Virus record (IMG/VR): IMGVR_UViG_3300042402_001868
Location: 91,923 to 155,922 of that record
DNA from: a virus
Strand: one strand, 5' to 3'
DNA length: 64,000 bases
Shown: positions 14,141 to 64,000 of the stretch, one piece after another
How the letters are laid out: each line of letters starts with the position of its first letter
Numbering within the stretch: position 1 is the stretch's first letter
The notes under the pieces: model-generated
What the model was told of the DNA's origin: nothing
Databases searched by the model: none
The model's input: the letters and a program-made list of their open reading frames with translations, nothing else
Translations under genes and position numbers: made by a program

Positions 14141-14149
14141 CTTAATTCA

Positions 14150-14692: not shown

Positions 14693-14715
14693 TCAGTTGT
14701 TTCCGTAACATTATT

Positions 14716-14790: not shown

Positions 14791-14795
14791 ATGAC

Positions 14796-14869: not shown

Positions 14870-14897
14870 TCAACACACTCTTTAGAATGTGTGTATC

Positions 14898-15021: not shown

Positions 15022-15051
15022 AACAGGACCTCGTTTCCTTGAGCACTAAAT

Positions 15052-15081
15052 GAAAAACCCTGGAGTGTTTAGTTCCAGGGT
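15052..15081 (-). terminator. Rho-independent terminator
   Basis: An 8-bp perfect stem (ACCCTGGA with TCCAGGGT) around a 9-nt loop, followed on the minus strand by a run of T. It ends the short transcription unit that starts near 15225. Confidence 0.8.
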
Positions 15082-15106
15082 CCTTTGGGTAGAATACAAT
15101 TGTACT

Positions 15107-15220
15107 TTACACAGACCCTGAGTCTCCTGGAATGCTATTCACGCGACCGTTCGCATGTGACCAGGCTGATACCTGGGTAAACATGGATTTTGTTTGCAGT
15201 GAATAGTTATGTTTTTTCAT
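15107..15220 (-). CDS. Possible 37-aa peptide in a self-contained transcription unit
   Basis: A 37-codon frame begins at an ATG at 15220, only 10 nt after the -10 box of a perfect consensus promoter, and ends before a strong terminator. It begins MKKHNYSLQT and contains FTQVSAW. The message would have almost no leader and no Shine-Dalgarno site. The same stretch holds an inverted repeat (CTATTCAC and complement, 15135-15206), a CCAGG/CCTGG hairpin and a GCGA/TCGC hairpin, so it may instead be a small regulatory RNA of about 170 nt. Both readings are open. Confidence 0.4.
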   Translation of the reverse strand: MKKHNYSLQTKSMFTQVSAWSHANGRVNSIPGDSGSV

Positions 15221-15230
15221 ATTAGTCTCT

Positions 15231-15259
15231 ATTATAGTTTATTTATGATTGTGTGTCAA
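15231..15259 (-). promoter_or_regulatory. Perfect consensus promoter of the short unit
   Basis: TTGACA (15254-15259), 17-bp spacer, TATAAT (15231-15236). It starts just after the 3' end of the initiator tRNA gene. Confidence 0.85.
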
Positions 15260-15275
15260 CCACAAATGGTAAAAT

Positions 15276-15350
15276 TGGTTGCGGGGGAAGGACTCGAACC
15301 TCCGTCTTTCGGGTTATGAGCCCGATAGTCTACCACTGACGTACCCCGCG
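15276..15350 (-). tRNA. Initiator tRNA-fMet (CAU)
   Basis: 75-nt cloverleaf with loop CTCATAA. Initiator marks are all present: a C1-A72 mismatch at the end of the acceptor stem and three G-C pairs (GGG/CCC) next to the anticodon loop. CCA encoded. Phage initiator tRNAs are uncommon. Confidence 0.93.
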
Positions 15351-15360
15351 GTAATACTTA

Positions 15361-15546
15361 TTTGATAACAATACTGCTGTGTGTTTAAAGGTTCCTGCTG
15401 TATTTCTACACCAGCATCCTTCCAACAGCATGTATGACTGTGACTAGCAGTCTGCCGCAACTTTCGTCCGCTCAGCGGCCATTGGATTTATAGTTCCCCA
15501 GCAGTTGGGCTCTCAGTCAAAGAATTTTTGACACATTGTTATCAAA
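15361..15546 (-). ncRNA. Stem-closed structured RNA element 3
   Basis: A 186-nt segment closed by a perfect 12-bp inverted repeat (TTTGATAACAAT at 15361-15372, complement at 15535-15546). The far arm overlaps the last codons of the radical SAM gene. The interior is GC-rich with hairpins such as CCGCT/AGCGG and GCTGG/CCAGC. It contains GCCCAACTGCTG, similar to GCCCATAACTGTTG in element 1. It lies directly upstream of initiator tRNA. Confidence 0.5.
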
Positions 15547-16732
15547 CAGCACTAGGTTTGAACACAGCGTCGTAGTCAGTGCCACGCATGCTGTCAAGCA
15601 GTTTAACATATTGTCGGTAATCATCATAGAGCTTTTGGTCAAACACAGTGGTTTTTCCTAGCCCTGTAATTATATTGTATAACTCTTCTCCCCATAGATT
15701 ATATGGATATATCTGTCCAAGACGAACCGACTCCGGCCTCCGCAACCAATCTACAGTTTCTATCCAGTCTACAAGACGTTTTAAGTCTTGAGGAGGTGCT
15801 GATTCCATGGTCAAACAAGGTGTACCAGACACCGTGGTTATTCTTAAATCTACTTCACGACTTTTAGCATAATCTACCAACGCCGGTAAACTGTACACAC
15901 TTGCGTGTTGCAAGGTGTGATTGATGTTTCTCACTGCCCCTGGTAATGCCTCTTGAAGGAGAATCATATTTGCAGAAATTTCCTCCCAGCGGCTAGGGTA
16001 TCTTAGATAATCATTCATAGCCCCCACACCTTCGAGGCTCACGCTGATCCATACATTTGTAAATAATTTTAACTTGTCCACGAGAACCGGCGGTACACGA
16101 GTGAGATTGGTATTAAATTGCAATCTCACATCGGTGTTATTACTGGCAATCAAAATATCTAATATTTTCCAAGTGCTTGGCAGTGGAAAGGGTTCGCCGC
16201 CGCTGATGTCAATACTCACAGCATCCTTGAGTTTTTCAGTTAAAAATTCAATGTATGCAGGATTTTCCCACCACTTGTCTGGTTGTGGGTGCTGGTGTAT
16301 CATATTGATGCGATCAAATGCCTCAGGGTTTTGGCCACGTTCCTGATGCCATGCACTGCTGGCATAAGTGCCGCACATGATGCATCTTAAATTGCAGTGA
16401 TTACCCAGGCGTATTTCAAAGTTGTAGATGGGATTATCTACACTCGGAGTAGTGTGAGTTTCTGGATGCAATTCGTTGGCTCTTTGTCTCAACGAAGTAT
16501 ATCCAAGATCTTCTTCTCGGAAACATTTTACGCATCCAACATGGCGAATTCCTTGATCAAAATCTTTAAGAATTGCAGTGCGTACATTGTCATTGTACCC
16601 TTGATATTGATCCCATCGGTATTCAAGAGACTGGTCACCTTCGGGGTACCATTGACAGCAAGGTGTTAAAACACCTTGCCATGTTATTCCCAATCCATGA
16701 TTAACCATGGAGCATGTTATTTTTTCAGCCAT
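15542..16732 (-). CDS. Radical SAM protein with N-terminal Cys-rich domain
   Basis: A 396-residue radical SAM enzyme: CNLRCIMC near residue 114 binds the 4Fe-4S cluster and SGGEP near 176 binds SAM. The N-terminal part has a lone Cys, the PCC pair in GVLTPCCQWY, and CVKCF, the same auxiliary-cluster pattern as its neighbour at 16738 with which it shares gene order and spacing (5 nt). The substrate is unknown. The tandem pair suggests two related modifications or a heterodimer. Confidence 0.8.
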   Translation of the reverse strand: MAEKITCSMVNHGLGITWQGVLTPCCQWYPEGDQSLEYRWDQYQGYNDNVRTAILKDFDQGIRHVGCVKCFREEDLGYTSLRQRANELHPETHTTPSVDNPIYNFEIRLGNHCNLRCIMCGTYASSAWHQERGQNPEAFDRINMIHQHPQPDKWWENPAYIEFLTEKLKDAVSIDISGGEPFPLPSTWKILDILIASNNTDVRLQFNTNLTRVPPVLVDKLKLFTNVWISVSLEGVGAMNDYLRYPSRWEEISANMILLQEALPGAVRNINHTLQHASVYSLPALVDYAKSREVDLRITTVSGTPCLTMESAPPQDLKRLVDWIETVDWLRRPESVRLGQIYPYNLWGEELYNIITGLGKTTVFDQKLYDDYRQYVKLLDSMRGTDYDAVFKPSAV

Positions 16733-16737
16733 AGGTA

Positions 16738-17940
16738 TTACTTATTTAGAAAAGCCTGGTCAAATGTTATTTTTCGAACGGAGTCTATTGATTGAGTAAA
16801 CTCAAAAAACTTAGATCGGGTGTTTTCATTGAACGCATACTGATCTGTAAGAACTGCTTTTATATAATCTATTGCAGAATTCAGATGTGTGATATAGATT
16901 GGGGGATCTTGTCCTTTCACAATCTTGGTCAATATAGCATTATCAGCAACGAATGTTTCAATCTGTTGTAATAACTCATTGACCTGTGCAGGCGTGAGAG
17001 TGTTTATTTCAAGGTAATCGTGCCATGTTACTGTTTGCACTCGTAGAATATACGCATGGTCAACACAATATTGCAGTACTGGAATCATTGTGTAATAACT
17101 GTAATGTTGTAAAATGTACCCAATATTAAAAAAACTCATATTGGGTAGAGTGTTTAACTTTTGAATATTTGTATTGATGTTTCCCCACTTACTGCCATAT
17201 CTCACATAGTCATTATGGTCTCCAATTCCTTCGACACTGACCATAACATCTATTTGTTTAAATTTTGATAACAGTTCGTAAACATTATCTTTGAGAAGAG
17301 TTGCGTTGGTCACAATGTTAAGATACACCGCCGGAGACAATTGCTCTAAAAAAGTAATTGCTTCTGGGGTAAACAACGGCTCTCCGCCAATTAATCTTAC
17401 GTATCTTAGATTTGAAATCAAGGAAGGAGTTAGGTTTTTAAAATCTTGTGATTCGTACCAAAGAAACTTACTATCAACAGTTGGGTATTTAAAATTATGT
17501 AAAATTGAAAAATTTTGTTTAATTTCAGTATTCCAACTGGAACTACTGTATGGTCCGCACATGTTGCAACGAAGATTGCAAGTGTTTCCAAACGCAATAG
17601 ACAGGTGTTCAAGTTGATCAACTACGGCTGTATCAAATTGATCAAGATTGCCTCCAAAATGTTTGTTATATAACTGCCTTTCGCTAAACGTGTTTTTAGT
17701 AGCAGTCTCTTCAACTTCCCAACAGCGATGGCATCCCGAATGTTTAACCCCGGCTAGTAATTCTTGTCTGACAGAGTCTAATTTAGAAATCTTCCATGTT
17801 TTAAAATTTTTAATATGATGAGATTGTTTGTCTGGTGCCGAGACAGCACTTTCATCGTAGGCACAACATGGTGTAAGTTGCCCAGCATTTCCAATGCTCA
17901 TGCCAACCCAGGGCATTATGCAAAATGTATCTTTATTCAT
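16738..17940 (-). CDS. Radical SAM protein with N-terminal Cys-rich domain
   Basis: A 400-residue radical SAM enzyme. The start is set at the ATG at 17940, as earlier in-frame codons lie in tRNA-Cys. CIMPWVGMSIG, TPCCAYDE and CHRCWE form the N-terminal Cys set; CNLRCNMC near residue 126 is the cluster loop and IGGEP near 187 the SAM motif. A GTTAAATA late-type motif ends 5 nt before the ATG. It is followed by the paralogue at 15542. Confidence 0.8.
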   Translation of the reverse strand: MNKDTFCIMPWVGMSIGNAGQLTPCCAYDESAVSAPDKQSHHIKNFKTWKISKLDSVRQELLAGVKHSGCHRCWEVEETATKNTFSERQLYNKHFGGNLDQFDTAVVDQLEHLSIAFGNTCNLRCNMCGPYSSSSWNTEIKQNFSILHNFKYPTVDSKFLWYESQDFKNLTPSLISNLRYVRLIGGEPLFTPEAITFLEQLSPAVYLNIVTNATLLKDNVYELLSKFKQIDVMVSVEGIGDHNDYVRYGSKWGNINTNIQKLNTLPNMSFFNIGYILQHYSYYTMIPVLQYCVDHAYILRVQTVTWHDYLEINTLTPAQVNELLQQIETFVADNAILTKIVKGQDPPIYITHLNSAIDYIKAVLTDQYAFNENTRSKFFEFTQSIDSVRKITFDQAFLNK

Positions 17941-17945
17941 ACTGA

Positions 17946-17953
17946 TATTTAAC
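17946..17953 (-). promoter_or_regulatory. Late-type promoter motif abutting the start codon
   Basis: GTTAAATA on the minus strand, 5 nt before the ATG at 17940, sharing the TAAATA core and spacing with other genes in this window. Confidence 0.35.
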
Positions 17954-17956
17954 CTT

Positions 17957-18034
17957 TGGAACACAGGGTGAGATTTGAACTCACGATTTTACGGATTTGC
18001 AATCCGTTGCATTTGACCACTCTGCCACCTGTGC
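17957..18034 (-). tRNA. tRNA-Cys (GCA)
   Basis: 78-nt cloverleaf; loop TTGCAAA gives anticodon GCA; discriminator U73, the Cys identity base, is present. CCA encoded. Confidence 0.95.
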
Positions 18035-18037
18035 ATA

Positions 18038-18195
18038 TTTTTATAGTCAAGCACCGAGAGATGCCGATTTGTCAACAATGTAGCTAGCACTGACAAGCGA
18101 ATGGCAGTTATGTCAGGACCTGTTCCTCGCACAGTTAGGCCCGAATAGTGACAGCGTCCCGTCACGATACCTTTATCGATGCTTGACTATAAAAA
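18038..18195 (-). ncRNA. Stem-closed structured RNA element 4
   Basis: A 158-nt segment closed by 20-bp arms with one mismatch (18038-18057 and 18176-18195). Inside are CGATA/TATCG and GTGAC/GTCAC hairpins and GGGCCTAACTGTG, similar to motifs in elements 1 and 3. No frame, no cloverleaf. It lies between tRNA-Cys and element 5. Confidence 0.55.
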
Positions 18196-18278
18196 CATAT
18201 TGAAACACACTAACTACCTTGGCATGTACTAAGGTTCAATGAACCGCTACGACCCTATCTTTAATGTGCTTCAATATG
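18196..18278 (-). ncRNA. Stem-closed structured RNA element 5
   Basis: An 83-nt segment closed by 18-bp arms with a few mismatches (CATATTGAA at 18196 and its complement ending at 18278). Interior hairpins GGTTC/GAACC and CCTT/AAGG are seen. It abuts element 4 with no gap. Confidence 0.5.
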
Positions 18279-18475
18279 CTCTGCATCCCCCGGCGGTAAT
18301 TATAGTACAGGAAGATATGACGCTATCATACCCCCTATAAGTACCTTCCACCCGCTTCCCGACAGGGACCGTTCTCGCATTGCTAGCGGCCTTTGGGTTT
18401 AAAGACTACCACCCGTAGTTGTCACACTACTTCTCATCCTGCGGGTCACAGTATCCGGAGACACCCGGAACGTTC
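18279..18475 (-). other. GC-rich non-coding stretch between element 5 and tRNA-Tyr
   Basis: About 200 nt without a credible frame. It holds several short inverted repeats (TCCGG/CCGGA, ACTAC/GTAGT, GGAAG/CTTCC) but no long closing stem that I can find. It may form one large RNA together with elements 4 and 5 (about 440 nt in total). Confidence 0.35.
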
Positions 18476-18560
18476 TGGTGGAGATGATAGGGATCGAACC
18501 TATCGTGACCGAAGTCGGAGGAGTTACAGTCCCCTGCCACACCATTGCGGCGGCATCTCC
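18476..18560 (-). tRNA. tRNA-Tyr (GUA)
   Basis: 85-nt class II tRNA; loop CTGTAAC gives anticodon GUA; A73 present, CCA encoded. Confidence 0.95.
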
Positions 18561-18565
18561 ATGTA

Positions 18566-18640
18566 TGGTACTCGATAGCGGAGTCGAACCGCTCTTGCCT
18601 GGATGAAAACCAGATGTCCTAACCGATAGACGAATCGAGC
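18566..18640 (-). tRNA. tRNA-Glu (UUC)
   Basis: 75-nt cloverleaf; loop TTTTCAT gives anticodon UUC. The acceptor begins with a G1-U72 wobble. CCA encoded. Confidence 0.94.
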
Positions 18641-18648
18641 AAATAAGG

Positions 18649-18713
18649 GAGAGCCACGGTTGCAGGACCTAGTGCTTCGTTACCAAAGGAAGTATCCAGG
18701 CGATGTGGCTCTC
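18649..18713 (-). ncRNA. Small stem-closed RNA element 6
   Basis: A 65-nt segment closed by a perfect 9-bp inverted repeat (GAGAGCCAC at 18649-18657 and its complement at 18705-18713) between tRNA-Glu and tRNA-Asp. It is about tRNA-sized but has no anticodon arm or T-loop consensus. Confidence 0.45.
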
Positions 18714-18719
18714 AAAACT

Positions 18720-18794
18720 TGGCGGTCTGTGGGAGAATCGAACTCCCGTAAGTGGATAGACAATCCACAGTAATAACCTCTATACGAACAGACC
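18720..18794 (-). tRNA. tRNA-Asp (GUC)
   Basis: 75-nt cloverleaf; loop TTGTCTA gives anticodon GUC; G73 fits Asp identity. CCA encoded. Confidence 0.95.
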
Positions 18795-18802
18795 AAAATC
18801 TA

Positions 18803-19017
18803 CTATATTAAAAAATACTAAAGGAACCATTGTGCATCTATGTCTACCTATACAACCGTCTTGTATAGGCCTGCACGGTCATTACTGCCTACATGCTCCG
18901 CCGCTTTTCTGGACATTTCTGCCCGGTTTCATAGACCTAGATTGAGCGTGGGCGGCCCCACTGTCCTCGCCTTAGATCCCTAACGGTGTAGGTAACCTTT
19001 AATACATTTTAATATAG
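18803..19017 (-). ncRNA. Stem-closed structured RNA element 7
   Basis: A 215-nt segment, the largest element, closed by 22-bp arms with a few mismatches (18803-18824 and 18996-19017). It contains a perfect 9-bp hairpin (CCTATACAA and complement near 18847-18870). It is the first product downstream of the tandem promoters and boxA-like leader. No frame, no cloverleaf. Confidence 0.55.
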
Positions 19018-19051
19018 CAACCCTTGCGGGCTACTACAAGAAAAACTTAAC

Positions 19052-19088
19052 TTTTTAAAGAACATCTAGTTAATTTCTAACTAGTCTC
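19052..19088 (-). promoter_or_regulatory. rrn-like leader: hairpin followed by boxA-like site
   Basis: Just after the inner promoter, a CTAGTTA/TAACTAG hairpin (19068-19088) is followed by TGTTCTTTAAAAA (19052-19064), which resembles the boxA antitermination element of bacterial rRNA leaders (core GCTCTTTAA / GTTCTTTAA). Hairpin then boxA is the order of rrn boxB-boxA. It would recruit NusB-S10 and let RNA polymerase pass through the structured tRNA and RNA region. Confidence 0.5.
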
Positions 19089-19090
19089 TA

Positions 19091-19119
19091 GTATAGCACA
19101 ATGTCAATATCTAGTCAAC
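19091..19119 (-). promoter_or_regulatory. Inner sigma70-type promoter of the stable-RNA unit (P2)
   Basis: TTGACT (19114-19119), 17-bp spacer, TATACT (19091-19096). Confidence 0.7.
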
Positions 19120-19187
19120 TTGTTTTTGCAAGTCCCTTCACTTTAGAAGGATTCTGTTAAGAACACCTTGTTTCTTAACTTGTTTCT

Positions 19188-19216
19188 ATTGTAGCAAATT
19201 GCGAATATTGCGTCAA
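19188..19216 (-). promoter_or_regulatory. Outer sigma70-type promoter of the stable-RNA unit (P1)
   Basis: TTGACG (19211-19216), 17-bp spacer, TACAAT (19188-19193). It lies about 97 bp upstream of P2, a tandem arrangement like that of rRNA operons. A GTTAAGAA/TTCTTAAC hairpin lies between the two. Confidence 0.65.
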
Positions 19217-19225
19217 CCTCCAATA

Positions 19226-19250
19226 AAAAACCCGCTTAGTGCGGGTTTTT
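19226..19250 (-). terminator. Rho-independent terminator of the DUF4214-like gene
   Basis: A perfect 10-bp stem (AAAAACCCGC with GCGGGTTTTT) around a 5-nt loop. It is symmetrical, so it could act on both strands, and lies 27 bp past the stop of the gene at 19277. Confidence 0.85.
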
Positions 19251-19276
19251 ATAAATGTAATACTTTTGTTTACATT

Positions 19277-20176
19277 TTATGCAACAAACGGAGTGTACTC
19301 AATTCCTGTTGTTGCTAACCCTACTAATCCAATTGTGGTTTCAAAAGCTGCCAACTCACTTGCGGCTACTAAAACATCTGCTTGGCTCAAATTGCTACTA
19401 GTCATCCAAGCTGTGTAATCGGTAACCTGGGTCAATGTAGCATCTGTACCAAATACGTTTTTGTAAACATGCTTGATAAATGTTTCATTACTGACACCAC
19501 CAGCATCTGTTTTGTAAGTGTCTGTGGCCAATAATGCTGTTGCTAGTTCTTTGTTGGTCCATCCTGAATCAGCAAGGTGTATACCAATGCCTTTGTATGC
19601 GTTGGTTACGTCAGCTGTGCCAAGTGCGGCTGCCAACAATGCGTATACATCGCCGGCACGGCCTGCGGCATCATAAGCAACGGCCTTGTCAGTGAACACC
19701 ACACGCTCATGGTCAGCAAGATTGAATTCCATGTTAGAAACTAGAGTACTTGCCAAGGTAACCTTAGCGGCAGTTTTAGTTGTGGTGAACTCTGTGCTTG
19801 CACCGCCCATGGTGTAAGTGTCAACACCTGCGGTACCAGTGACATCTACAACAACGTCAACGGTGCCATCACCTGCACGACCTGTACCCACTACGCCGAA
19901 TGTGGCAACTTTACCTAGTGTGCCAACAGTGGCCACTGTAACGATCAAGTTGTTGGCTACCGTGCCGCCTAATGCTGTTCCAGCAAGAGTGATTGTATCA
20001 CCTGCTACATAGCCGCGACCTGCACTTGCGGCAAGGCTGTCTAATACAACGGAATATACGCCGTTGGTTTTTGTAACATCAAATGCGGCCTCAACTCCTG
20101 CACCACCTGTTAATCCAGTGATGTTTTGATAGGTAGCGTTTACTGCTTTGTCTTTGATTGTAATTGTTGTTGTCAT
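19277..20176 (-). CDS. Ala/Thr-rich protein with DUF4214-like C-terminus
   Basis: A 299-residue protein starting at the ATG at 20176, which has an AAGGA site; a longer upstream frame lacks one. Residues 1-160 are a Thr, Val, Gly and Ala-rich beta-repeat region with no cysteine; residues about 190-290 are helical and resemble DUF4214, a domain found in S-layer and other secreted bacterial proteins. The gene has its own promoter and terminator, so it is a monocistronic and probably strongly expressed unit. A surface or virion decoration role is possible. No signal peptide is seen. Its base composition is richer in GC than its neighbours, which suggests transfer. Confidence 0.6.
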   Translation of the reverse strand: MTTTITIKDKAVNATYQNITGLTGGAGVEAAFDVTKTNGVYSVVLDSLAASAGRGYVAGDTITLAGTALGGTVANNLIVTVATVGTLGKVATFGVVGTGRAGDGTVDVVVDVTGTAGVDTYTMGGASTEFTTTKTAAKVTLASTLVSNMEFNLADHERVVFTDKAVAYDAAGRAGDVYALLAAALGTADVTNAYKGIGIHLADSGWTNKELATALLATDTYKTDAGGVSNETFIKHVYKNVFGTDATLTQVTDYTAWMTSSNLSQADVLVAASELAAFETTIGLVGLATTGIEYTPFVA

Positions 20177-20205
20177 TATTTTTCCTTGTAAAATGAATAT
20201 CAACT

Positions 20206-20234
20206 AGTATATAGCGTTTATACTAATAAGTCAA
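20206..20234 (-). promoter_or_regulatory. Sigma70-type promoter of the DUF4214-like gene
   Basis: TTGACT (20229-20234), 17-bp spacer, TATACT (20206-20211), immediately after the tmRNA terminator. Confidence 0.7.
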
Positions 20235-20236
20235 AG

Positions 20237-20264
20237 AAAAAGGGCACAAAAATGCCCTTTTTTT
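20237..20264 (-). terminator. Rho-independent terminator of the tmRNA gene
   Basis: A perfect 10-bp stem (AAAAAGGGCA with TGCCCTTTTT) around a 6-nt loop, with T-runs on both sides. Confidence 0.85.
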
Positions 20265-20269
20265 GGTGG

Positions 20270-20587
20270 TTTCTGTTACGAGGTATTTCCTACCCTAGGC
20301 TGAGTTCAGGCAGCCAAAGCGAACTGTTCGTCGTTTGCATTTACGTGTTTTGCTTCTCCGACCGGGAGACCCCTGTCCTAACGGCTTCTACATTGCCGGA
20401 CTGTCCATTTCCGTACTCTTGACCCAATCGATATCTATGTCAGGCCCATCAAAAACACACTAGAACTAAGATTTTCGCAGTCAAGTTTTAGAGTACTCGT
20501 ACTACGCCAATGTGCTTATGGTGGACCTGCCGGGAACTGCCCCCGGGTCTTGAATCCTTTTCTGTCTACTTCATACAGTCTTAACTT
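20270..20587 (-). ncRNA. ssrA: Permuted (two-piece) tmRNA
   Basis: Transfer-messenger RNA for ribosome rescue, in the circularly permuted form. Read on the minus strand, the acceptor piece comes first and ends at an encoded CCA (20519); its T-stem is CCGGG/CCCGG. After an intervening loop of about 70 nt the coding piece starts at 20447 with GGGCCTG, which pairs with CAGGTCC of the acceptor piece to make a 7-bp acceptor stem with one G-U. The tag frame at 20306-20338 reads ANDEQFALAA then a stop, very close to tags of betaproteobacteria (ANDExxALAA). Promoter and terminator flank it. Confidence 0.9.
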
Positions 20588-20589
20588 GT

Positions 20590-20618
20590 ATTTAAACATA
20601 TCTTCGAATTATTGTCAA
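20590..20618 (-). promoter_or_regulatory. Promoter of the tmRNA gene
   Basis: TTGACA (20613-20618), 17-bp spacer, TTAAAT (20590-20595). The -10 box is a four-of-six match, the -35 box is perfect. Confidence 0.55.
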
Positions 20619-20658
20619 CCTCTAATCACAGCATAATTACATACAGCAAGGACAACAT

Positions 20659-21366
20659 ATGATTTATTTTGATGGTGATAGTCACACATACGGGGAAGAA
20701 TTAGAAAACCCTGCGCAGGAAAGTTTTCCAAAAATCTTGTCAGAAAAACTAGGACATGAATTTGTAAACTTAGCCGAATCTGGATGTGCCAATGATGAAA
20801 TCATGAGAAGGGTACATCGTTACCTGGCACAGTGCAAAGAAAAAAATCAATACCCAGACATGATAATCATTGGTTGGACTGAAGTTGACCGCGAAACATG
20901 GTTCCTTAACGGTGTGGGAAAATCTGTTGAAACATACAAATTAACCGCAACAGATGCACATAAACTGAACCCTGAGAGGCTTGCTAAATTTAGAAAAAAT
21001 GTCAAATACAACGGTATGTATATTGCTGCCATGACACACTATTGGTACAATCAAGTTTTTAATTTACATTGTGAACTTGAACTGTTAAAAATTCCGCACT
21101 TGTTTTTTCATGGCTGTCCAAATTGGTTAAAAAAGTGGAATGACATCCGTAGTTGGAATATTGTAAAAATGGACAATATCACCACATATCCGTGGAATAA
21201 TACTTTTATAAATCAGACAGATCCTGATTTTAGCATGTTTCAATGGACCACTGCTCGTGGACATCCACACACCAAATATGATCACGTTGGACCTCTAGCA
21301 CATGTTGAATGGGCCGAGTTGTTGTACAACCACATACAACAGCATGCTCTGCTAGATCAATTGTGA
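20659..21366 (+). CDS. SGNH-hydrolase-like protein (paralogue 2)
   Basis: A 235-residue plus-strand gene with an AAGGAC ribosome site. FDGDSHTYGEE at the N-terminus carries the nucleophile Ser, SGCANDEIMRR near residue 42 the Gly/Asn oxyanion block, GWTEVDRETW near 74 the family's W-x-R-x-W segment, and DHVGPLAHVEWAEL near 215 the His. It is divergent from the tmRNA gene and its last 10 bases overlap the tail of the minus gene at 21357. Function probably ester hydrolysis on glycans; substrate unknown. Confidence 0.7.
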   Translation: MIYFDGDSHTYGEELENPAQESFPKILSEKLGHEFVNLAESGCANDEIMRRVHRYLAQCKEKNQYPDMIIIGWTEVDRETWFLNGVGKSVETYKLTATDAHKLNPERLAKFRKNVKYNGMYIAAMTHYWYNQVFNLHCELELLKIPHLFFHGCPNWLKKWNDIRSWNIVKMDNITTYPWNNTFINQTDPDFSMFQWTTARGHPHTKYDHVGPLAHVEWAELLYNHIQQHALLDQL

Positions 21367-21887
21367 CTGTCATTGTCCCATTCTTTTGGAATCCAGCCTA
21401 GTCGAAATAGGTCTGCTCGTATTTCGTCAGTAACTGTGCCCTCTGGCACATGTCCTAGGTTCACCCATTGTTCATCGGGTTCACCTTGTATTCCTGAACA
21501 ATACCAATCAATATAGTCACCTTGTTCGCGCATGTCTGCCACAATGCCTCCTGCATGGCGCCAACTGGCACTCCACCGCTGATCCCGGATCAATGGCCAT
21601 ACTTTGTTCTTTACAAACTGCATGTTGCACATGGCCGCATACAAGTTTTGAGCATAAGAGGCATTGCTTTTAACTTTGTCACAGATCCACTTGGTGCTAC
21701 GCAGGTCGTATTCCATGTTGTCTTTTTGCCATTCAGGATCTACTATATTAGCTTCAGCTTGTTCTTTAGCTGTTTTCCACATGTTAATATAAATTTCTGG
21801 AACTTCTTTGCCATCTTGTTTGGCTCGCTCTTTTGCACTCTCAAGTTGGAAGGTATGGCGCTCGGGACTGCTGTTTACTTTGGTCAT
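21357..21887 (-). CDS. Conserved phage protein, unknown
   Basis: A 176-residue, mostly helical protein with WSASWRHAGGIVADMREQGD near residue 105 and DYIDWYCSG after it, segments conserved in T4-like phages of aquatic bacteria. No catalytic motif is apparent. It is co-transcribed after tRNA-Leu(UAA). Confidence 0.55.
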   Translation of the reverse strand: MTKVNSSPERHTFQLESAKERAKQDGKEVPEIYINMWKTAKEQAEANIVDPEWQKDNMEYDLRSTKWICDKVKSNASYAQNLYAAMCNMQFVKNKVWPLIRDQRWSASWRHAGGIVADMREQGDYIDWYCSGIQGEPDEQWVNLGHVPEGTVTDEIRADLFRLGWIPKEWDNDSHN

Positions 21888-21897
21888 GATATAAAAA

Positions 21898-21984
21898 TGG
21901 TACGAGTGACCGGAATTGAACCGGTACGCCTTTTAAAGCGAGAGATTTTAAGTCTCTTGTGTCTACCTATTTCACCACACTCGC
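21898..21984 (-). tRNA. tRNA-Leu (UAA)
   Basis: 87-nt class II tRNA; loop CTTAAAA gives anticodon UAA for UUA and UUG. CCA encoded. Confidence 0.95.
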
Positions 21985-21991
21985 TTGTGCA

Positions 21992-22153
21992 TTAACCGCC
22001 CCTGCCAGTGACCTTTTTAACAGGTTTGCCCACAGGCTGTGGCGCTGTTGCTTTCTTAACTGACTTGGAACCTTTAGCAGGTTTTGCATCAGGATGTTGT
22101 GCGGCATGCTTTTTTTCCAATGCCGCTTTTACTGCTGTGATATATGAAGCCAT
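21992..22153 (-). CDS. Small basic Lys/Ala/Pro-rich protein (53 aa)
   Basis: A 53-codon frame with a strong TAGGAGA ribosome site. It starts MASYITAVKAALEKKHA and continues with a Lys, Ala, Pro tail ending in GRGG. The composition is that of small nucleic-acid-binding or histone H1-like tails. Nestled between tRNA-Arg(UCU) and tRNA-Leu(UAA). Function unknown; the clean start and codon pattern support a real gene. Confidence 0.6.
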   Translation of the reverse strand: MASYITAVKAALEKKHAAQHPDAKPAKGSKSVKKATAPQPVGKPVKKVTGRGG

Positions 22154-22187
22154 ACTGTTCTCCTAGTGTCTGTTATTTAACAGGGCA

Positions 22188-22262
22188 TGGTCCGGCCACT
22201 AGGAATCGAACCTAGATTGACGGCTTAGAAGGCCGCTGTATTATCCATTATACTATGGCCAG
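22188..22262 (-). tRNA. tRNA-Arg (UCU)
   Basis: 75-nt cloverleaf; loop CTTCTAA gives anticodon UCU for A-purine arginine codons AGA and AGG. CCA encoded. Confidence 0.94.
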
Positions 22263-22267
22263 ACAAT

Positions 22268-22627
22268 TTAATCCCAATGCATCCGGTTGTTCATCTGATA
22301 GAAAAAATCTTTTTCTAACTCATACATATCTGATGGACTCAATCTAAAGTGTTGACTATTACCCAGTCTTGATACTGAAAATCTAACATAGCTAGCAGGT
22401 TCGCAGTTGGGTCGCGGTGCATGATGTTTGTTAATTACCAACCAGTTGTGTCCGTTAACTTCGGCATTGAATCCTGTTTCTTTGTTCCAGTTGGCCAGCA
22501 TGTCGGCCATCTGATCTGTGGTCATGTGATACCCTTGAGCATAGGTGTCGCTAACTCTTATAGAGAGGTCAACCCGCTTTTGCTCTTTGAACACATATAG
22601 TTTTAAAGTTTTGGTAAAGTTTAACAT
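22268..22627 (-). CDS. Hypothetical protein
   Basis: A 119-residue protein with an N-terminal strand rich in Lys and Val and a His/Arg-rich middle (NKHHAPRP). No family is recognised. It sits between tRNA-Met and tRNA-Arg with only a few bases to spare, and is presumably translated from the tRNA precursor transcript. Confidence 0.5.
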   Translation of the reverse strand: MLNFTKTLKLYVFKEQKRVDLSIRVSDTYAQGYHMTTDQMADMLANWNKETGFNAEVNGHNWLVINKHHAPRPNCEPASYVRFSVSRLGNSQHFRLSPSDMYELEKDFFYQMNNRMHWD

Positions 22628-22638
22628 TTAGAATTAAT

Positions 22639-22715
22639 TGGTGCGCCCACAAGGACTTGAACCTTGGACCAAAGGATTATGAGTCCTCTGCTCTGACCAA
22701 CTGAGCTATAGGCGC
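22639..22715 (-). tRNA. tRNA-Met elongator (CAU)
   Basis: 77-nt cloverleaf; loop CTCATAA with anticodon CAU. The D-arm and acceptor stem (GCGCCTA) are of elongator type, without the C1-A72 mismatch of initiators. CCA encoded. Confidence 0.9.
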
Positions 22716-31643: not shown

Positions 31644-32487
31644 CTTTTGTTTCCTGAAAGTGTGTGTGCGGATTCTTAAACTGCACCATTTGTTTGTTTA
31701 CATCGTTCTTGGCCAGTTTCTCCCACGGGTCTTGAGTGCCGTTGAATATGTTGGCAAAGAAGCTCATGTCATGCCCACGTTCGTTTTGCAAGTAGGTGGC
31801 AATCTTGGCACAGTCATTATGGCGTAATGCCATTTGTTGTACACTATGAAAGTCTCTTGAATCTTTGGGATTGCCTTCTAACATGGGACGATTCTGGAAT
31901 GTTTCATCGTTGTTGTTGCCGGTAAGATCATGACGATCGTGCAACACATCTACTTCGATACGTTCCCAAATATCCAACATGTATGCCTGTTGGCTTAGCC
32001 ATGCATCACTAATTTGATGCGGGCTCAGATAGCCCAACAAGTCTAACCACTTGCGAGGAACAATGGGAAAGATACTGTATGGATGATCATGATGCGTGTG
32101 GAATGCAAGTAGTTTAAACTCACCCTCGTGCTTCATGATTTCTTTGTCCCAATCTTGGGTTTCCATCACAGCATCATCATTCCAAAATACCAACCAACGT
32201 GCGTCGCTATTACGTGCAAGCTCATTAACATATTCATTGAGTCGAATGTATCCCAACGGAGCAAAACTCATAGCAGTATAGTTAATCTCTTGTGCATCTA
32301 GCCAAGGTTGCAACTCTTCTTCAAAGTGCTTGGTGCCAATCTCATCGTCATTGTCAAATCCAAACATAAGTTGAACTCGACTGGCATCCGATGCCAGTTC
32401 AATCACGCTTTTTACACTGCGTTCTAGCGAGTCGGATCGCCCACGAGTGGGCAACAAGATTGCAATATCAAATTCTGGTGTGCTCAT
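31627..32487 (-). CDS. GT-A glycosyltransferase-like protein
   Basis: A 286-residue protein with the opening of family 2-type transferases (IAILLPTRGRSDSLERSV) and FWNDDAVME near residue 100 in the position of the DxD metal site. It probably moves a sugar from an activated donor. Overlaps the methyltransferase start by 17 nt and is coupled to the queD-like gene upstream by four bases. Confidence 0.65.
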   Translation of the reverse strand: MSTPEFDIAILLPTRGRSDSLERSVKSVIELASDASRVQLMFGFDNDDEIGTKHFEEELQPWLDAQEINYTAMSFAPLGYIRLNEYVNELARNSDARWLVFWNDDAVMETQDWDKEIMKHEGEFKLLAFHTHHDHPYSIFPIVPRKWLDLLGYLSPHQISDAWLSQQAYMLDIWERIEVDVLHDRHDLTGNNNDETFQNRPMLEGNPKDSRDFHSVQQMALRHNDCAKIATYLQNERGHDMSFFANIFNGTQDPWEKLAKNDVNKQMVQFKNPHTHFQETKDVAKP

Positions 32488-33038
32488 GCAAATAAGTCCT
32501 CATTCCATTCTCTATGGCCTTCTCTAAAAGCCATGTTTGCTTGTGTTTCACGTACTTCCACTCGGTAGCACCACAGGCGTTGTGCTTCACCCTCGCCCCA
32601 AAAGTCTGGAATGTAAACACCGTTCACATACTTGTACAGCATGTCAGCAAGTGATTCACATCCTACTCTGGGCAAGATTGTGAGTTTGGCCAGTTTGCGA
32701 CGTTCCATCTCTTTATAGAACTCGAGTTCTGGATCGTCGGCACTGACCAAGGTTGTGTGATCAAACTGATCTTCTAAAATCTTTTTAAGTTCTTTAAGAC
32801 CGCCATAGTCAGCGGCCCAGTTGCGAACATCAAGGTCGTTGGTACCAAAGTAAAACTTCATACTAAACGAGTAACCATGATTCAAGTTACAATGACTATC
32901 GGCTCTCCACTGTCGGTAGGCACACGGAAATGCGTCAATGTACTCTTTGGTACTGGTAAATTTGTATTGTACAGGCCCGCGATACGGAAGATTTTGCTCC
33001 ATGTGATTAATTAGATCCTGAGTTGATGATATTGCCAT
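32484..33038 (-). CDS. queD: 6-carboxytetrahydropterin synthase-like (QueD family)
   Basis: A 184-residue member of the 6-pyruvoyltetrahydropterin synthase family. WRADSHCNLNHGYSFSMKF near residue 44 aligns with the zinc and catalytic Cys region, WAADYGGLKELKK near 72 with the VVDFG block, and FDHTTLV near 90 with the catalytic DH. The second His of the usual HGH zinc motif is replaced by Tyr. It would supply 6-carboxytetrahydropterin to QueE. An AGGAGA site and a TATAAATT late-like motif (33078-33085) precede it. Confidence 0.75.
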   Translation of the reverse strand: MAISSTQDLINHMEQNLPYRGPVQYKFTSTKEYIDAFPCAYRQWRADSHCNLNHGYSFSMKFYFGTNDLDVRNWAADYGGLKELKKILEDQFDHTTLVSADDPELEFYKEMERRKLAKLTILPRVGCESLADMLYKYVNGVYIPDFWGEGEAQRLWCYRVEVRETQANMAFREGHREWNEDLFA

Positions 33039-59600: not shown

Positions 59601-60419
59601 TTAGCGTTCTTCCAAATAATCTTGATTGCCCTGGGGCTTGTTGTTACGCTTCTGGAATATCTTTACTGCCATGTCGGCATCATTGACATTGCGGAAACGT
59701 GTGGGTAATTTGCGTTTGCCATGACGAATTTCAAATCCTTTTGCTTCATCACCATAGCATTCGAGCATACTGCCATCTTCCATGGGATAGGTTTTTACAG
59801 GTGCTTCGAGTAACCCCATCATGGCAAGCCCTGTCCCGCCGATTACTGTGGCATTTTCAATTCCCTGTTGCATGTCATCAAATTCTTCGTCATATACTTC
59901 TGCCAGAGTAGGATCTTCGGCAGGTGCTTGTGCAGGCACTATATCAAAGTCTTGTTGCGTGGGATCTTCATCAATCTCTTCATTTTCAGGATCTGGGTCA
60001 TTGGCAATGTCCAACTCGTCCTTGGCCTTGCGAACCAAGTGGCTGTCAATTTTGTTGCTGTCTTCCAGTCGCTCAAGATAATCCACAAAGGTGCGTTTGA
60101 CTTTGCTCAGCATGTCTTCTTCAACTTCTTGCATGGCTTCTTCTAACGGGCTCTTGGTGGGTTCAATACTATCTCCTACCAGTTTACCATCCATTGGATG
60201 TTTCTGATAGGGCTTTTTAGTAAGTGTTGGGCTAATGTCTCGGGGCTTGAACAGCGCAGGCAACTGGTCCACAGACTTCTGCTGTTTGTTTAATCCATGC
60301 TTGACATTCACAGGAGTAAGTTTACCTTCCTCTACTGTGGCCAAGCGATCAAGTATCAATCTGATGTCTGCCGATGAACTCATGCTCTTTGCTCTTTCAA
60401 ATAACTTCTCAACATCCAT
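59601..60419 (-). CDS. Acidic protein of unknown function, virion region
   Basis: A 272-residue protein. Residues 1-60 are helical, 80-190 are an acidic linker (EEIDEDPTQQDFD, EEFDDMQQG), and the C-terminal third has FEIRHGKRKLPTRF and a Lys-rich end. Precedes the LysM gene by 2 nt and is overlapped by dps at its 5' end. An alternative start lies 12 codons in. Not a recognised family. Confidence 0.5.
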   Translation of the reverse strand: MDVEKLFERAKSMSSSADIRLILDRLATVEEGKLTPVNVKHGLNKQQKSVDQLPALFKPRDISPTLTKKPYQKHPMDGKLVGDSIEPTKSPLEEAMQEVEEDMLSKVKRTFVDYLERLEDSNKIDSHLVRKAKDELDIANDPDPENEEIDEDPTQQDFDIVPAQAPAEDPTLAEVYDEEFDDMQQGIENATVIGGTGLAMMGLLEAPVKTYPMEDGSMLECYGDEAKGFEIRHGKRKLPTRFRNVNDADMAVKIFQKRNNKPQGNQDYLEER

Positions 60420-60820
60420 CCATGTTTCTGATGGGCATCAATTCGTTCTGCAATGAAGTTGGCAATACCTTGCTGATTTTCTTCAGTTGCCACTTGGAAA
60501 GTTTCGTTAAGAAGATCTAGCATTTGACCGTTGTTGGCCAAGAGTTCTTCTAGCATGAGTCTAGCACGTGGGATCTTTGTTTGTCCCTGTATTTTTGTCA
60601 ATTCAATAAATCGTTCAAATGATCCTGGAGCATAGTCGCCTAAGGCACGAATGTATTCAGCGGTGGGGTCAGTAGCACCATACACATCGTCGTGGATCGC
60701 GTCAAAGAAAGCATGTAGCTGGCCAAAATCAGGGCCTTCTACGTTCCAGTGAAACTGTTTGGCTTTTAGTGCAAAAGCCTCTTCAGTTGCCAGGAGAATT
60801 TTTAAAGCGTCCGCTAACAT
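60380..60820 (-). CDS. dps: Dps-like ferritin
   Basis: A 146-residue ferritin-fold protein, started at the ATG at 60820 with an AAGGAAC site. KQFHWNVEGPDFGQLHAFF near residue 22 and DPTAEYIRALG near 50 carry the Dps ferroxidase His, His, Asp and Glu. Dps makes a 12-subunit shell that oxidises iron with hydrogen peroxide and covers DNA. Length is a little below bacterial Dps (150-180). No basic N-terminal DNA-binding tail is seen. It fits with AhpC/AhpD as an oxidative-stress set. Confidence 0.85.
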   Translation of the reverse strand: MLADALKILLATEEAFALKAKQFHWNVEGPDFGQLHAFFDAIHDDVYGATDPTAEYIRALGDYAPGSFERFIELTKIQGQTKIPRARLMLEELLANNGQMLDLLNETFQVATEENQQGIANFIAERIDAHQKHGWMLRSYLKEQRA

Positions 60821-61001
60821 TCTTGTTCCTTTTGTATTCCTTAGGTGTGTTGGGAGTTGGGTCATCACCTGTTACATATTTACCTGTTAGCATTGATCCA
60901 CCGTTTCTTGATACCATGCCCAGGCTGCTTGCAACAGGAGCAATTGATCCTGCACAAGTGGCGCCTACAGAGGCATTTTCCATGATTTCATGCGCTCGCA
61001 T
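60783..61001 (-). CDS. Small protein with capsid-targeting-like leader
   Basis: A 72-residue protein. It opens MRAHEIMENAS and continues with VGATCAGSIAPVASSLG. The MRAHE(I/F)-x-E leader is shared with the proteins at 62253 and 62450 and resembles T4 internal-protein leaders that end in a gp21 prohead-protease site. Overlaps the dps start by 38 nt. Function unknown. Confidence 0.55.
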   Translation of the reverse strand: MRAHEIMENASVGATCAGSIAPVASSLGMVSRNGGSMLTGKYVTGDDPTPNTPKEYKRNKNVSGRFKNSPGN

Positions 61002-61327: not shown

Positions 61328-62029
61328 ATGACTGAACTAATTTACACTCTAGTAGTCACACATATTACTATAATTTGTGTCACACTATTCCTACACCGTG
61401 GACAAGCACATCGCGGTATCGTCTTTGCTCCTGCACTAGAACATTTCATGCGAGCCTGGCTATGGCTTACCACAGGCATGGTGACTCGGCAATGGGTGGC
61501 CATACATCGCAAACATCATAGATTCACAGAAGAAACTGAAGATCCTCACAGCCCAGTACACTACGGCATATGGCGTGTGTTATTTACAGGAGCGGGATTG
61601 TATCACTCGGCCAGCAAAGATGCTGAGATGGTTGCACAATATGGCGCGGGCACACCCGACGACTGGGTTGAACGCAACATCTACACCAAGCACAGTCGCG
61701 TGGGCATTGTGTTAATGTTATTGATTGACATTGTGTTGTTTGGTGCCTGGGGTGTGTTGATATGGGGCATACAAATGATATGGATACCATTCTGGGCCGC
61801 AGGTGTTATCAACGGCATAGGACATTGGTGGGGATATAGAAATGGCGAAACTAAAGATCAAAGCAGGAACATTATGCCTTGGGGCATTATTATTGGCGGT
61901 GAATGTCTGCACAATAATCATCATCTTGAACCCGGCAATCCTCGTCTCAGTCGCCGCTGGTTTGAATTTGATATAGGTTGGATGTGGTTGAGCGTGTTTA
62001 GACTTGTGGGTCTTGCCAAGCTACGCTAG
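61328..62029 (+). CDS. Membrane fatty acid desaturase-like enzyme
   Basis: A 233-residue plus-strand protein with the three His boxes of acyl-CoA/lipid desaturases: HRGQAH near residue 23, HRKHH near 60 and HNNHH near 198. Two or three hydrophobic segments (residues 5-20, 130-160) suit an inner-membrane location. The two-iron centre introduces a double bond into a fatty acyl chain, which would raise membrane fluidity. It is shorter than typical (about 300). It is expressed away from its neighbours and ends 2 bp before the next minus gene. Confidence 0.85.
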   Translation: MTELIYTLVVTHITIICVTLFLHRGQAHRGIVFAPALEHFMRAWLWLTTGMVTRQWVAIHRKHHRFTEETEDPHSPVHYGIWRVLFTGAGLYHSASKDAEMVAQYGAGTPDDWVERNIYTKHSRVGIVLMLLIDIVLFGAWGVLIWGIQMIWIPFWAAGVINGIGHWWGYRNGETKDQSRNIMPWGIIIGGECLHNNHHLEPGNPRLSRRWFEFDIGWMWLSVFRLVGLAKLR

Positions 62030-62031
62030 TT

Positions 62032-62256
62032 TTATGATATTCTTACTACACCACTTACCACTGCGTCTTTACCGTATTGCCCTTGCAGTAGCAGTTTAGC
62101 CATGGCTGGACTTTTGGCAAAAACTGCCACATCAATGCTGGTGCTGTAGTCGGGATTTTTTACCTTGACTCGCGCCTGGTACACTTGAAATCCTGGTGCT
62201 ACAGATTCATTGAGATTGTATTGTGATCCTGTCACGTTGGTTGCGTACTGTTTCAT
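62032..62256 (-). CDS. Small conserved phage protein
   Basis: A 74-residue protein begun at the ATG at 62256 (ATGA overlap). It has a central strand pattern (YQARVKVKNPDYSTSI) and a helix ending LLLQGQYGKDAVV, related in pattern to the 50-residue protein at 5891. Function unknown. Confidence 0.5.
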   Translation of the reverse strand: MKQYATNVTGSQYNLNESVAPGFQVYQARVKVKNPDYSTSIDVAVFAKSPAMAKLLLQGQYGKDAVVSGVVRIS

Positions 62257-62453
62257 TTTTTTCTGCCTGACTTCATGTTGGCACACCAGTGATACATCTT
62301 GGCTTTTTCACCAGATGCATTCTTGGCACGTTGGCGTAGATCAGTTACTGATCCTGAGCAACTGGCACCTGCACGTTTCACACGCCCAGGACGGCTCTTG
62401 CCTTTGACTTTGCCATCTGCAAAGTTTTCGTTAATAAATTCGTGTGCTCTCAT
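62253..62453 (-). CDS. Small basic protein with capsid-targeting-like leader
   Basis: A 66-residue protein begun at the ATG at 62453, overlapping the upstream stop (ATGA). It opens MRAHEFINENFADG, then is strongly basic (KGKSRPGRVKRAG) and ends GEKAKMYHWCANMKSGRKK. The leader matches those at 60783 and 62450. A basic body after a cleavable leader is the layout of T4 internal proteins packaged with DNA. The MYHWCANMK block is conserved in other phages. Confidence 0.6.
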   Translation of the reverse strand: MRAHEFINENFADGKVKGKSRPGRVKRAGASCSGSVTDLRQRAKNASGEKAKMYHWCANMKSGRKK

Positions 62454-63154
62454 GCCAGTTCCTGAAAACGTTGAATCAAAGTTTTGGCATCCACGCCAAA
62501 TACCAATTTTACCTGTGACCCAGCATATAGGTAGGCAGCAACTTCTTCTTCGATATGTGCGTGATAGTCCAATTTGGTTTTTAGTACCTTTGCCATGGTC
62601 TTTACCACAGGATCGTTGCGGCATTCGTCAAACAACTGATCTACTTGACGTTTGAACTTTGGATCTAGATAGTACTTGGCATGAAACAACTCGTGTTGTA
62701 CAGTGGCCGGATCATCACCACTGACACCTATTACACAGAATTTTTTCATGCCTTTTGTGGCCTGTTCAACTGCACTCACCACTGTTTGTTCTGCTTGACT
62801 GAGTTTGCCCACTGAGCGATGCCATGATCGAAATGCAGAATCTGTTATGTTAAATCCGTCCCAGAATTTAAAATAGTCTGCATCACCCTGGCGGTCCATC
62901 CAGTCATCTAAAAACTCCGCCATGTCAACATGCTGTTTTTTGTCAGTGTATCTGTTTCCCTCATAGTATTCAGACATTCGAAAAAAACTTTTAGTAAGAT
63001 CAGGAATAGTTTTAAACTTTAGCAACACACATCCATTACAGGGACGAGAAACTGAAAAATCACGACGTGAGGGCTTGGGTTCTTTTTTATTGTCAAAATA
63101 ATCATCGACTGTGCGTTTGGTCCACCGCTCGATTAAAAACTCCTGGGCTCTCAT
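62450..63154 (-). CDS. Zincin-like metallopeptidase with capsid-targeting-like leader
   Basis: A 234-residue protein. It opens MRAQEFLIERW, the same leader type. VQHELFHAKYYLD near residue 158 has the HExxH zinc signature, and EEEVAAYLY near 208 is a candidate third ligand. The N-terminal half has a CNGC pair. It might be packaged and injected, or act on capsid proteins. No family assignment beyond zinc peptidase motif. Confidence 0.55.
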   Translation of the reverse strand: MRAQEFLIERWTKRTVDDYFDNKKEPKPSRRDFSVSRPCNGCVLLKFKTIPDLTKSFFRMSEYYEGNRYTDKKQHVDMAEFLDDWMDRQGDADYFKFWDGFNITDSAFRSWHRSVGKLSQAEQTVVSAVEQATKGMKKFCVIGVSGDDPATVQHELFHAKYYLDPKFKRQVDQLFDECRNDPVVKTMAKVLKTKLDYHAHIEEEVAAYLYAGSQVKLVFGVDAKTLIQRFQELA

Positions 63155-64000
63155 AGTTCATCCCGGAACAAGTACACTTGTATAGGAGTACCAGATTTGT
63201 GTGCATCTGCAGATCTATGATGCCCGTCAAGTATGTACAGTTTGTTGTTTTTTTGTAGCACAACCGGATGTTGTTTCATTGTGGCAAATGGTGGCTTGCC
63301 TCCACCTTGTGTGCTCAGCCAGTCCTGTGTGGCCAACAAGTGGCGTGGATTAACTTGTAGCAATGTGGGTTTGGTTCCTGCATCTAGCAGACTGTGTACA
63401 CGATCTTTTAAATCACCTGAGAACTTGAACTTGCTATCATATGGTTCGTTGGTAGCAGGATGTGCTTTGCCACGATACTCGCTCATGCGCAATGGCATGG
63501 CAAAAAACTCTATGCCTTCCGCCACACCTTGCTTGTGCTGATTTTGAGATGCATTAGCTGATTCCTTTTCGGCAGCATTCCACTTGTCGGCATAGTACTT
63601 GGCATCGCGTCTCAAGTCAGTAACGTCTACCACAAAGTCACCGTCCATAATGTGCCATACAGATTTTTCTACACCAGCCTTGGACATGGTGTAAGATTTT
63701 TTAATCGTGTATTTTTTATCTGCGCCTTCTGCAATGCTCTCGCTCATGATTGGCACAACTTCAATTTCTGTGCCGTAAGCATAGCCGTTGTTTTGAACCC
63801 ATTGTGTAGCCACACGGTTAGCATCGCGTTGATCGTTACCTATACCAGAGAATCTATGCATCTCGTTGCCGTCAGCATCTAGAACCTTCCACGCACCTGT
63901 AAATGTGCCGGGTGTGGCTCGTTGCCGTGCTAGATCATTTGTGGATCCCGAAATATCGATCAGGCCACCTTGCTGTTGATCCGGTGTGAGTGCTGGGGTA
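63151..64000 (-). CDS. Partial protein with ParB/sulfiredoxin-like C-terminal domain
   Basis: The frame is open from the stop at 63151 through an internal Met at 63861 to the window edge, so the N-terminus is missing and at least 282 residues are present. The C-terminal part has LYILDGHHRSADAHKSGTPI, the phosphate-binding GHHR of ParB-like domains. The visible N-terminal part has STNDLARQRA, TFTGAWKVLDADGNEM and two more repeats of a phage beta motif. Its role is unknown; ParB-like phage proteins may bind or nick DNA. Confidence 0.6.
   Translation of the reverse strand, partial: TPALTPDQQQGGLIDISGSTNDLARQRATPGTFTGAWKVLDADGNEMHRFSGIGNDQRDANRVATQWVQNNGYAYGTEIEVVPIMSESIAEGADKKYTIKKSYTMSKAGVEKSVWHIMDGDFVVDVTDLRRDAKYYADKWNAAEKESANASQNQHKQGVAEGIEFFAMPLRMSEYRGKAHPATNEPYDSKFKFSGDLKDRVHSLLDAGTKPTLLQVNPRHLLATQDWLSTQGGGKPPFATMKQHPVVLQKNNKLYILDGHHRSADAHKSGTPIQVYLFRDEL

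Follow-up and report, generated by a model that had tools for sequence, protein, structure and literature searches.

A predicted zinc metallopeptidase gene with a probable T4-type head leader in a virus record from IMG/VR, and its predicted role as packaged cargo

The closest described systems are the internal head proteins of bacteriophage T4, the zincin domains of phage polyvalent proteins, and the peptidase domains of Pro-Pro endopeptidases (PPEPs) and anthrax lethal factor. In T4, short leaders direct proteins to the prohead core, and the prohead protease gp21 cuts after L/I-X-E (excerpts of PMC9026906 and PMC9958956); ten residues of IPIII are enough for packaging, according to the former. 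By injection the T4 internal proteins enter the host, where they inhibit type IV restriction enzymes (excerpts of PMC12373910 and PMC9391042). Zincin domains in polyvalent proteins, such as N4 virion RNA polymerase, P1 DdrB and ArdC, are predicted to travel with phage DNA, and one of them has been tied to lethal factor by profile search (excerpts of PMC5512222). Phage zincins within polyvalent proteins (PMC5512222) and CTS-tagged cargo in T4 are already known. Searches of the open-licence literature found no description of a zincin that stands alone behind a T4-type leader, of head cargo belonging to the present protein family, or of joints for the prohead protease within cargo of this kind.

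The window analyzed here is a stretch of 64,000 nucleotides (G000:C1:91923-155922) of a linear virus record of 155,922 bases, IMGVR_UViG_3300042402_001868. The first-pass annotation had placed a putative packaged zinc metallopeptidase gene close to the end of this window, and the open reading frame was confirmed at exactly that position, on the minus strand, with a product of 234 aa (Table 1). An ATGA overlap links the gene with each of its neighbors. We conclude, with a probability of roughly 0.7, that it encodes a packaged zinc peptidase carried as a T4-type internal head protein. Like T4 IpI, IpII, IpIII and Alt, the product is a small protein with a short N-terminal leader ending in [L/I]xE, it comes from a genome with a T4-type portal and prohead protease, and the same leader stands before unrelated bodies; the T4 proteins, however, are type IV restriction enzyme inhibitors (IpI to IpIII; excerpts of PMC12373910) or an ADP-ribosyltransferase (Alt; excerpts of PMC5512222), whereas the window protein is a predicted zinc peptidase. 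It also differs from the polyvalent-protein zincins, which are domains of large polypeptides, in being a stand-alone enzyme behind a T4-type leader.

Table 1. Features of the window, in window coordinates
Feature	Position	Strand	Remarks
24 tRNA genes	9980-22715		
6-pyruvoyl tetrahydropterin synthase family gene	32484-33038		
Ferritin-like protein	60380-60868		
Third leader-bearing gene	60783..61001	-	MRAHEIME leader and small protein
Fatty-acid desaturase	61328-62029	opposite	
Downstream coupled gene	62253..62453	-	MRAHEFINE leader and basic NFADGK module; 66 aa, net charge +12
Leader-bearing gene, predicted zinc metallopeptidase	62450..63154	-	234 aa, ATG start
EEE, residues 202-204	62543..62551	-	E204, predicted third zinc ligand; EEEVAAY is 202-208
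Y197	62564..62566	-	7 residues N-terminal of E204; 98% conserved
HELFH, residues 154-158	62681..62695	-	Predicted zinc-binding/catalytic motif, from invariance and a modelled helix
W-x-GFN, residues 98-102	62849..62863	-	Family signature; W98, G100 and N102 in 64/64
Leader MRAQEFLIE, residues 1-9	63128..63154	-	Capsid-targeting-like; predicted prohead-protease cut after E9
Upstream coupled gene	63151..63999	-	Truncated by the record's end; IAE-G and VAE-G junctions; ParB-like match below the curated cut-off

Relatives in IMG/VR were confirmed with growing sets of queries (14, then 19, then 140, of which 80 were used), giving a family of 81 sequences including the window protein, 64 of them distinct; the start codons of L002, L003, L024 to L027 and L085 were set by hand. 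Residues Y94, W98, G100, N102, H154, E155 and H158 are invariant among the 64 distinct members, E204 is kept in 63 of them with a gap in the remaining row, and R59, E62, Y197 and E204 each reach 98%, with identities to the window protein falling as low as 18%. The first-pass annotation's HExxH with a downstream Glu block is therefore upheld, and invariance of the motif across 64/64 distinct members indicates that it is no chance match. Within the clade nearest to the window protein, four of five pairs gave dN/dS values of 0.075 to 0.082, indicating purifying selection, and dS was saturated in the fifth. Library searches did not give a convincing family for the window protein, which has no Pfam or NCBIfam match. 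Family members gave scattered weak matches (25 of 30 Pfam families listed and 21 of 21 NCBIfam families), of which the SprT-like one occurred in 5/64 members with a best value of 0.021; the M34/Pro-Pro endopeptidase family was absent from the 25 of 30 Pfam families listed for the 64 members. The family phrog_1365, of unknown function, matched 30/64 members weakly (best 0.00084, among 25 of 49 families listed). Sequence searches of the PDB returned unrelated proteins only, and one scan of bacterial and archaeal contigs with peptide patterns of the window protein, the reach of which is close relatives, found none.

The named relatives are ORF432 of Xanthomonas phage XacN1 and two copies in LR756502, a 642-kb uncultured phage. 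ORF432 (AP018399.1 306771-307415, corresponding to L016:5950-6594) is 27% identical to the window protein in the alignment, carries HExxH and the distal Glu, and matches phrog_1365 at 0.00038. It is a member of the same family but, unlike the window protein, it is leaderless and adjoins MazG. ORF432 is annotated as an ABC transporter ATP-binding protein, yet it belongs to the zincin family described here; it is not named in the main text of the XacN1 paper (PMC5852040).

In order to assess the fold, as the first-pass annotation had proposed, AlphaFold models were prepared for the window protein (64 sequences; pLDDT 83.5, pTM 0.79) and for the leaderless relative L067 (pLDDT 94.4, pTM 0.90), and both align best with zinc peptidases, at modest Z scores. 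The model of the window protein consists of a single domain and the leader, with no second effector domain, unlike the polyvalent proteins; helix 149-163 carries HExxH and helix 201-211 carries E204, while residues 1 to 11 fall below pLDDT 50. In structural comparison, ranks 1 to 16 for this model are PPEP-3, PPEP-1 and lethal-factor domains (Z 5.6 to 4.0; PPEP-3 is best, with Z 5.6, 124 aligned residues and an rmsd of 4.5), and all 28 matches with at least 100 aligned residues among the 50 listed are zinc peptidases or the related anthrax-factor N-terminal domains, which are inactive relatives. For the L067 model the list is headed, at Z 5.3 to 4.6, by PPEP-2, lethal factor and PPEP-1, interspersed with a pair of short helical matches (PPEP-2 is best, with Z 5.3, 130 aligned residues and an rmsd of 4.8), and all 10 matches of at least 100 aligned residues among the 50 listed are zinc peptidases. 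The PPEP and lethal-factor peptidase domains, which we take to be of the MEROPS M34 type, are thus the best full-domain matches of both models (Z 4.0 to 5.6) and share HExxH and the distal Glu with the window protein; they also have a Tyr seven residues before the Glu, the same spacing as Y197 and E204, and Y197 is a candidate transition-state Tyr by analogy to Pro-Pro endopeptidases. However, the window protein is a phage gene product with a head-type leader and no sequence-level match to these enzymes was found in the PDB or among the Pfam families listed, and identity to their structures is 8 to 16% over the aligned part. Because the structural Z scores are about 5, all below 6, and values below 8 can reflect a common arrangement, our claim is limited to a zincin fold of PPEP-like layout and does not extend to membership of M34. 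Foldseek gave nothing significant against the PDB (best E 0.33 for the window protein and 1.7 for the second model) and one Megaviridae environmental protein at E 1.9e-4 against BFVD. The prediction that the window protein is a zincin with HExxH and a distal Glu (gluzincin type) is well supported. With a zincin-like predicted fold, one of the two outcomes that the first-pass annotation named as refuting, a fold of another kind, did not arise.

The leader is shared within the near clade, in which the 10 distinct relatives with an intact N terminus and the window protein begin MRAxEFL[IT]E (L015 is cut by its contig end); L7 and E9 are kept in all 11. Other genes beside it start with the same kind of leader (for example MRAREFVNE, MRATEFITE, MRAREFITE, MRAAEFISE, MRSDEFISE, MRFKEFILE, MRATEFVSE, MRASEFIAE). 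Together, the window and 19 near-clade loci hold 33 distinct leader-bearing frames; compared by BLASTP at E 1e-3 with the first 12 residues removed, these separate into 9 unrelated groups, of which the protease is one. In the 155.9-kb record, 3 of 1376 ATG frames of at least 50 aa match the leader pattern, against 0.13 expected from shuffled N termini, a post hoc count since the pattern was written after the target had been seen; all three start within 2.2 kb. T4 IpII and IpIII start with MKTYQEFIAE, which is similar to MRAQEFLIE. Residues 1 to 11 are modelled with low confidence yet are conserved in the near clade, and pN is lower in codons 1-13 than in codons 14-36 in 5/5 pairs (in one by 0.001), most clearly between the window and L005 (0.062 versus 0.317); with 13 leader codons, pN is below that of codons 37 to the end in only 3/5 pairs. 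A core motif of the family, FxRxQE[FY]YES (residues 57-66), resembles the leader; this likeness is taken as coincidence because the leader also heads unrelated proteins. The capsid-targeting-like reading of the leader in the first-pass annotation is supported by several lines of comparative evidence, among them its occurrence on unrelated neighbors, its likeness to T4 IpII and IpIII and the shared [LIV]xE cut rule, and the leader would behave as a T4-type capsid-targeting sequence.

The cut rule was examined with the basic NFADGK module of the downstream coupled gene, for which at least 600 pattern stretches occur in uncultured viral contigs (593 were confirmed and 80 used); among 50,697 deposited phage records, none matched it at E 1e-5. 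The residue directly before the module is Glu in 64/64 distinct contexts (59/59 when distinct six-residue contexts are counted), and position P3 is V, I, L or M in 56/64, against 22% in translated frames; the binomial for this enrichment is about 1e-28, with contexts that come from related phages and are not independent draws. An expression splits these contexts into 19 after a leader and 45 inside longer proteins, although at least L137 and L147 among the 19 look internal. Four other modules, picked after the pattern had been seen and with many contexts from loci fetched later, have Glu in 22/22 contexts and V, I or L at P3 in 22/22. By these counts, a single rule covers both the leader's end and the inter-module joints, and it appears to be that of a gp21-type protease with V allowed. 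The generic motif [VIL]xE[GSN] is not specific to cargo: it occurs 37 times in cargo against 22 when shuffled, and also above the shuffled level in other neighbor proteins (64 versus 36). The cargo count of VAEG is partly circular, since cargo was chosen by VAEG or leader, and one match lies in a polymerase-like protein.

Upstream of the protease gene, giant modular polyproteins with GVAE-G type joints are encoded at L027:11-6001, L002:2858-6001, L003:95-3172 and L003:3182-6001. Direct coupling of the protease gene to such polyproteins is seen in L002, L003 and L027, the longest of them 1997 aa (L027:11-6001), and in the window it is coupled to the end of one, the truncated upstream gene there likely encoding the C-terminal portion of such modular cargo; the near loci L004, L012 and L024 have different neighbors. 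Pfam finds a deaminase (5.5e-11) and an amidoligase in L003:95-3172, both over the cut-off, and in the L027 polyprotein an amidoligase (4.7e-6) together with an IrrE-like HELTH domain below the threshold, and gives no match for the L002 polyprotein and L003:3182-6001. Several module and domain names were assigned by eye, and Pfam confirmed the deaminase and amidoligase (over cut-offs) and DUF6321. The polyproteins have the look of injected cargo with several effectors, divided by the prohead protease. The N termini that such cuts would leave at L002:6705-7805, L003:6705-7280 and the C terminus of L027:11-6001 resemble export signals, DLTRRGFLRGLGAATVAGAAGSALA being Tat-like and GIRTALGAVALAGTVAMSPAQA and GWKQNVAAGVLGAGVALGGGTAQA Sec-like, by eye only. 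After injection, some cargo might move on by export to the envelope of the host.

Head genes lie at the left end of the record, where a T4 portal (8e-105), a 272-aa gene that matched nothing in Pfam and a fragment of Peptidase_S77 are found on the same strand; the fragment breaks off where the record ends and scores 29.1 bits, or 30.3 in a second search, against a cut-off of 27. Gp23 was not found in this record, itself a fragment, and neither Peptidase_S77 nor Gp23 was found in the near-clade contigs searched (8/8, G001 to G008), which gave no sign of linkage between the protease gene and head genes in that lineage. Portal and prohead protease lie at one end of the linear record and the zinc protease gene at the other, so that joining the ends would bring them together; this was considered and dropped, since G002 has about 64 kb upstream of the gene without those families. 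In LR756502, copy 1 has the leader-like start MKYLSKYNMFIE and is followed by a 157-aa gene and then a T4-type portal (1.3e-57); about 3.3 kb past the end of copy 1 lies a prohead-protease-like gene that matches Peptidase_S80 above the cut-off and Peptidase_S77 beneath it, and about 5.7 kb past copy 1 a Gp23 match. Copy 2 is leaderless and far from copy 1. The family gene of L085 begins MRIIKTYKLFLE and stands behind two leader-like genes. The leader-like starts of L085 and of LR756502 copy 1 have Phe at P3, not L, I or V.

The distribution of the leader was followed on a maximum-likelihood tree of 63 rows, from which L087, L057, L015 and L047 were left out and to which the three named copies were added; L055 is caught by the leader expression but is not labelled as leader on the tree. 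HExxH is present in 63/63 rows, 13 of which bear a leader and 50 of which are leaderless, and the near clade sits on a long stem (1.48). The leader label needs two changes; the starred branches force two, and a single change was obtained in 0% of 200 bootstrap trees. In our reading, a phage protease that acted inside the cell was twice recruited to the head, a direction that depends on the midpoint root. A recheck of upstream frames in the 52 rows taken as leaderless gave a leader-like start only in L085, which is a leader row on the tree; the other matches fall, by eye, on FxRxQE[FY]YES within the core or on its first strand. A large leaderless group has a conserved operon, with a 142-aa gene in 23/63 loci, a 125-aa gene in 21, and an HEVAHAL gene (742 aa) in 19. 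The HEVAHAL protein, 742 aa in L041:6735-8960, lies beside the leaderless protease in those 19 loci; a peptidase-vWA protein has been reported for jumbo phages (excerpts of PMC7824862), and this identity was rejected for the HEVAHAL protein, in which Pfam finds no domain at 0.01. Since most relatives examined are leaderless, packaging would belong to the lineage of the window and not to the whole enzyme family, and the separate operon of the leaderless relatives suggests that the enzyme's job is possible without packaging. The proposed recruitment to the head would be much like the case of T4 Alt beside its paralogs ModA and ModB (excerpts of PMC5512222).

In the preferred reading, the leader MRAQEFLIE would dock the protein in the prohead core, a gp21-like prohead protease of the phage would cut after E9, and the mature enzyme would remain in the head with the DNA and be injected with the genome, whereupon its HExxH and Glu zinc site would cut one or few host proteins at the start of infection. 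The sequences themselves show the conserved active site, the modular leader, the junction rule, a portal and a prohead-protease fragment in one record, and a tree on which the leader needs two changes; from these, packaging, cleavage, injection, activity and substrate are inferred. That the substrate is a host protein is about an even prospect; by analogy to the T4 internal proteins, defence proteins are a plausible but speculative target, and host transcription or translation factors are equally possible. A wider and tentative extension, to which we give slightly less than even odds, is that in these T4-type phages injected cargo takes the form of modular polyproteins, in which effectors and basic DNA-binding-like modules are cut at [VIL]xE by the prohead protease, with the stand-alone zinc protease as one unit that has the same junction at its leader; head leaders would have arisen twice in the protease family, and cleavage would uncover export signals on part of the cargo, which would then act in the host envelope.

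The alternatives to this reading are not all exclusive of it. Packaging is common to the preferred reading and to one in which the protease works in the head or at ejection, trimming or maturing the upstream cargo polyproteins, a role that its direct coupling to such polyproteins (L002, L003, L027 and the window) would fit and that has relatives in print: Iyer et al. propose processing roles for polyvalent-protein zincin domains (excerpts of PMC5512222), and in a survey of jumbo phages a zincin is put forward as acting in head maturation (excerpts of PMC7824862). The junctions, however, fit the prohead-protease rule, making a second protease unnecessary, and the gene has other neighbors in L004, L012 and L024 and, in the large leaderless group, sits in another operon; an in-head role is unlikely. 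A shade less likely still is an enzyme that is made and acts in the infected cell, its leader being no head-targeting tag. The preponderance of leaderless relatives that still keep the active site is in line with this alternative, as is the failure to find Peptidase_S77 or Gp23 in the near-clade contigs searched, but it leaves aside a T4-like leader that unrelated neighbors have in common under the same cut rule, and a leader-like start that the tree shows a second time, close to the T4-type portal of LR756502. The least probable alternative, and a distinctly improbable one, is that the HExxH protein has kept the fold and lost protease activity, serving as a non-catalytic binder; the case for an enzyme rests on sequence and models, yet H154, E155 and H158 persist in every distinct member and E204 in all but the gapped row, at identities down to 18%.

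If the preferred reading is true, such phages have a protease at work inside the host from the start of infection, ahead of all phage gene expression. The coupled modular polyproteins may be a larger and more novel discovery than the protease itself, and the junction rule would provide a simple sequence-based listing of candidate injected cargo in many uncultured T4-type phages. The leader-like and leaderless copies of LR756502 would form a natural pair for what packaging adds to such an enzyme.
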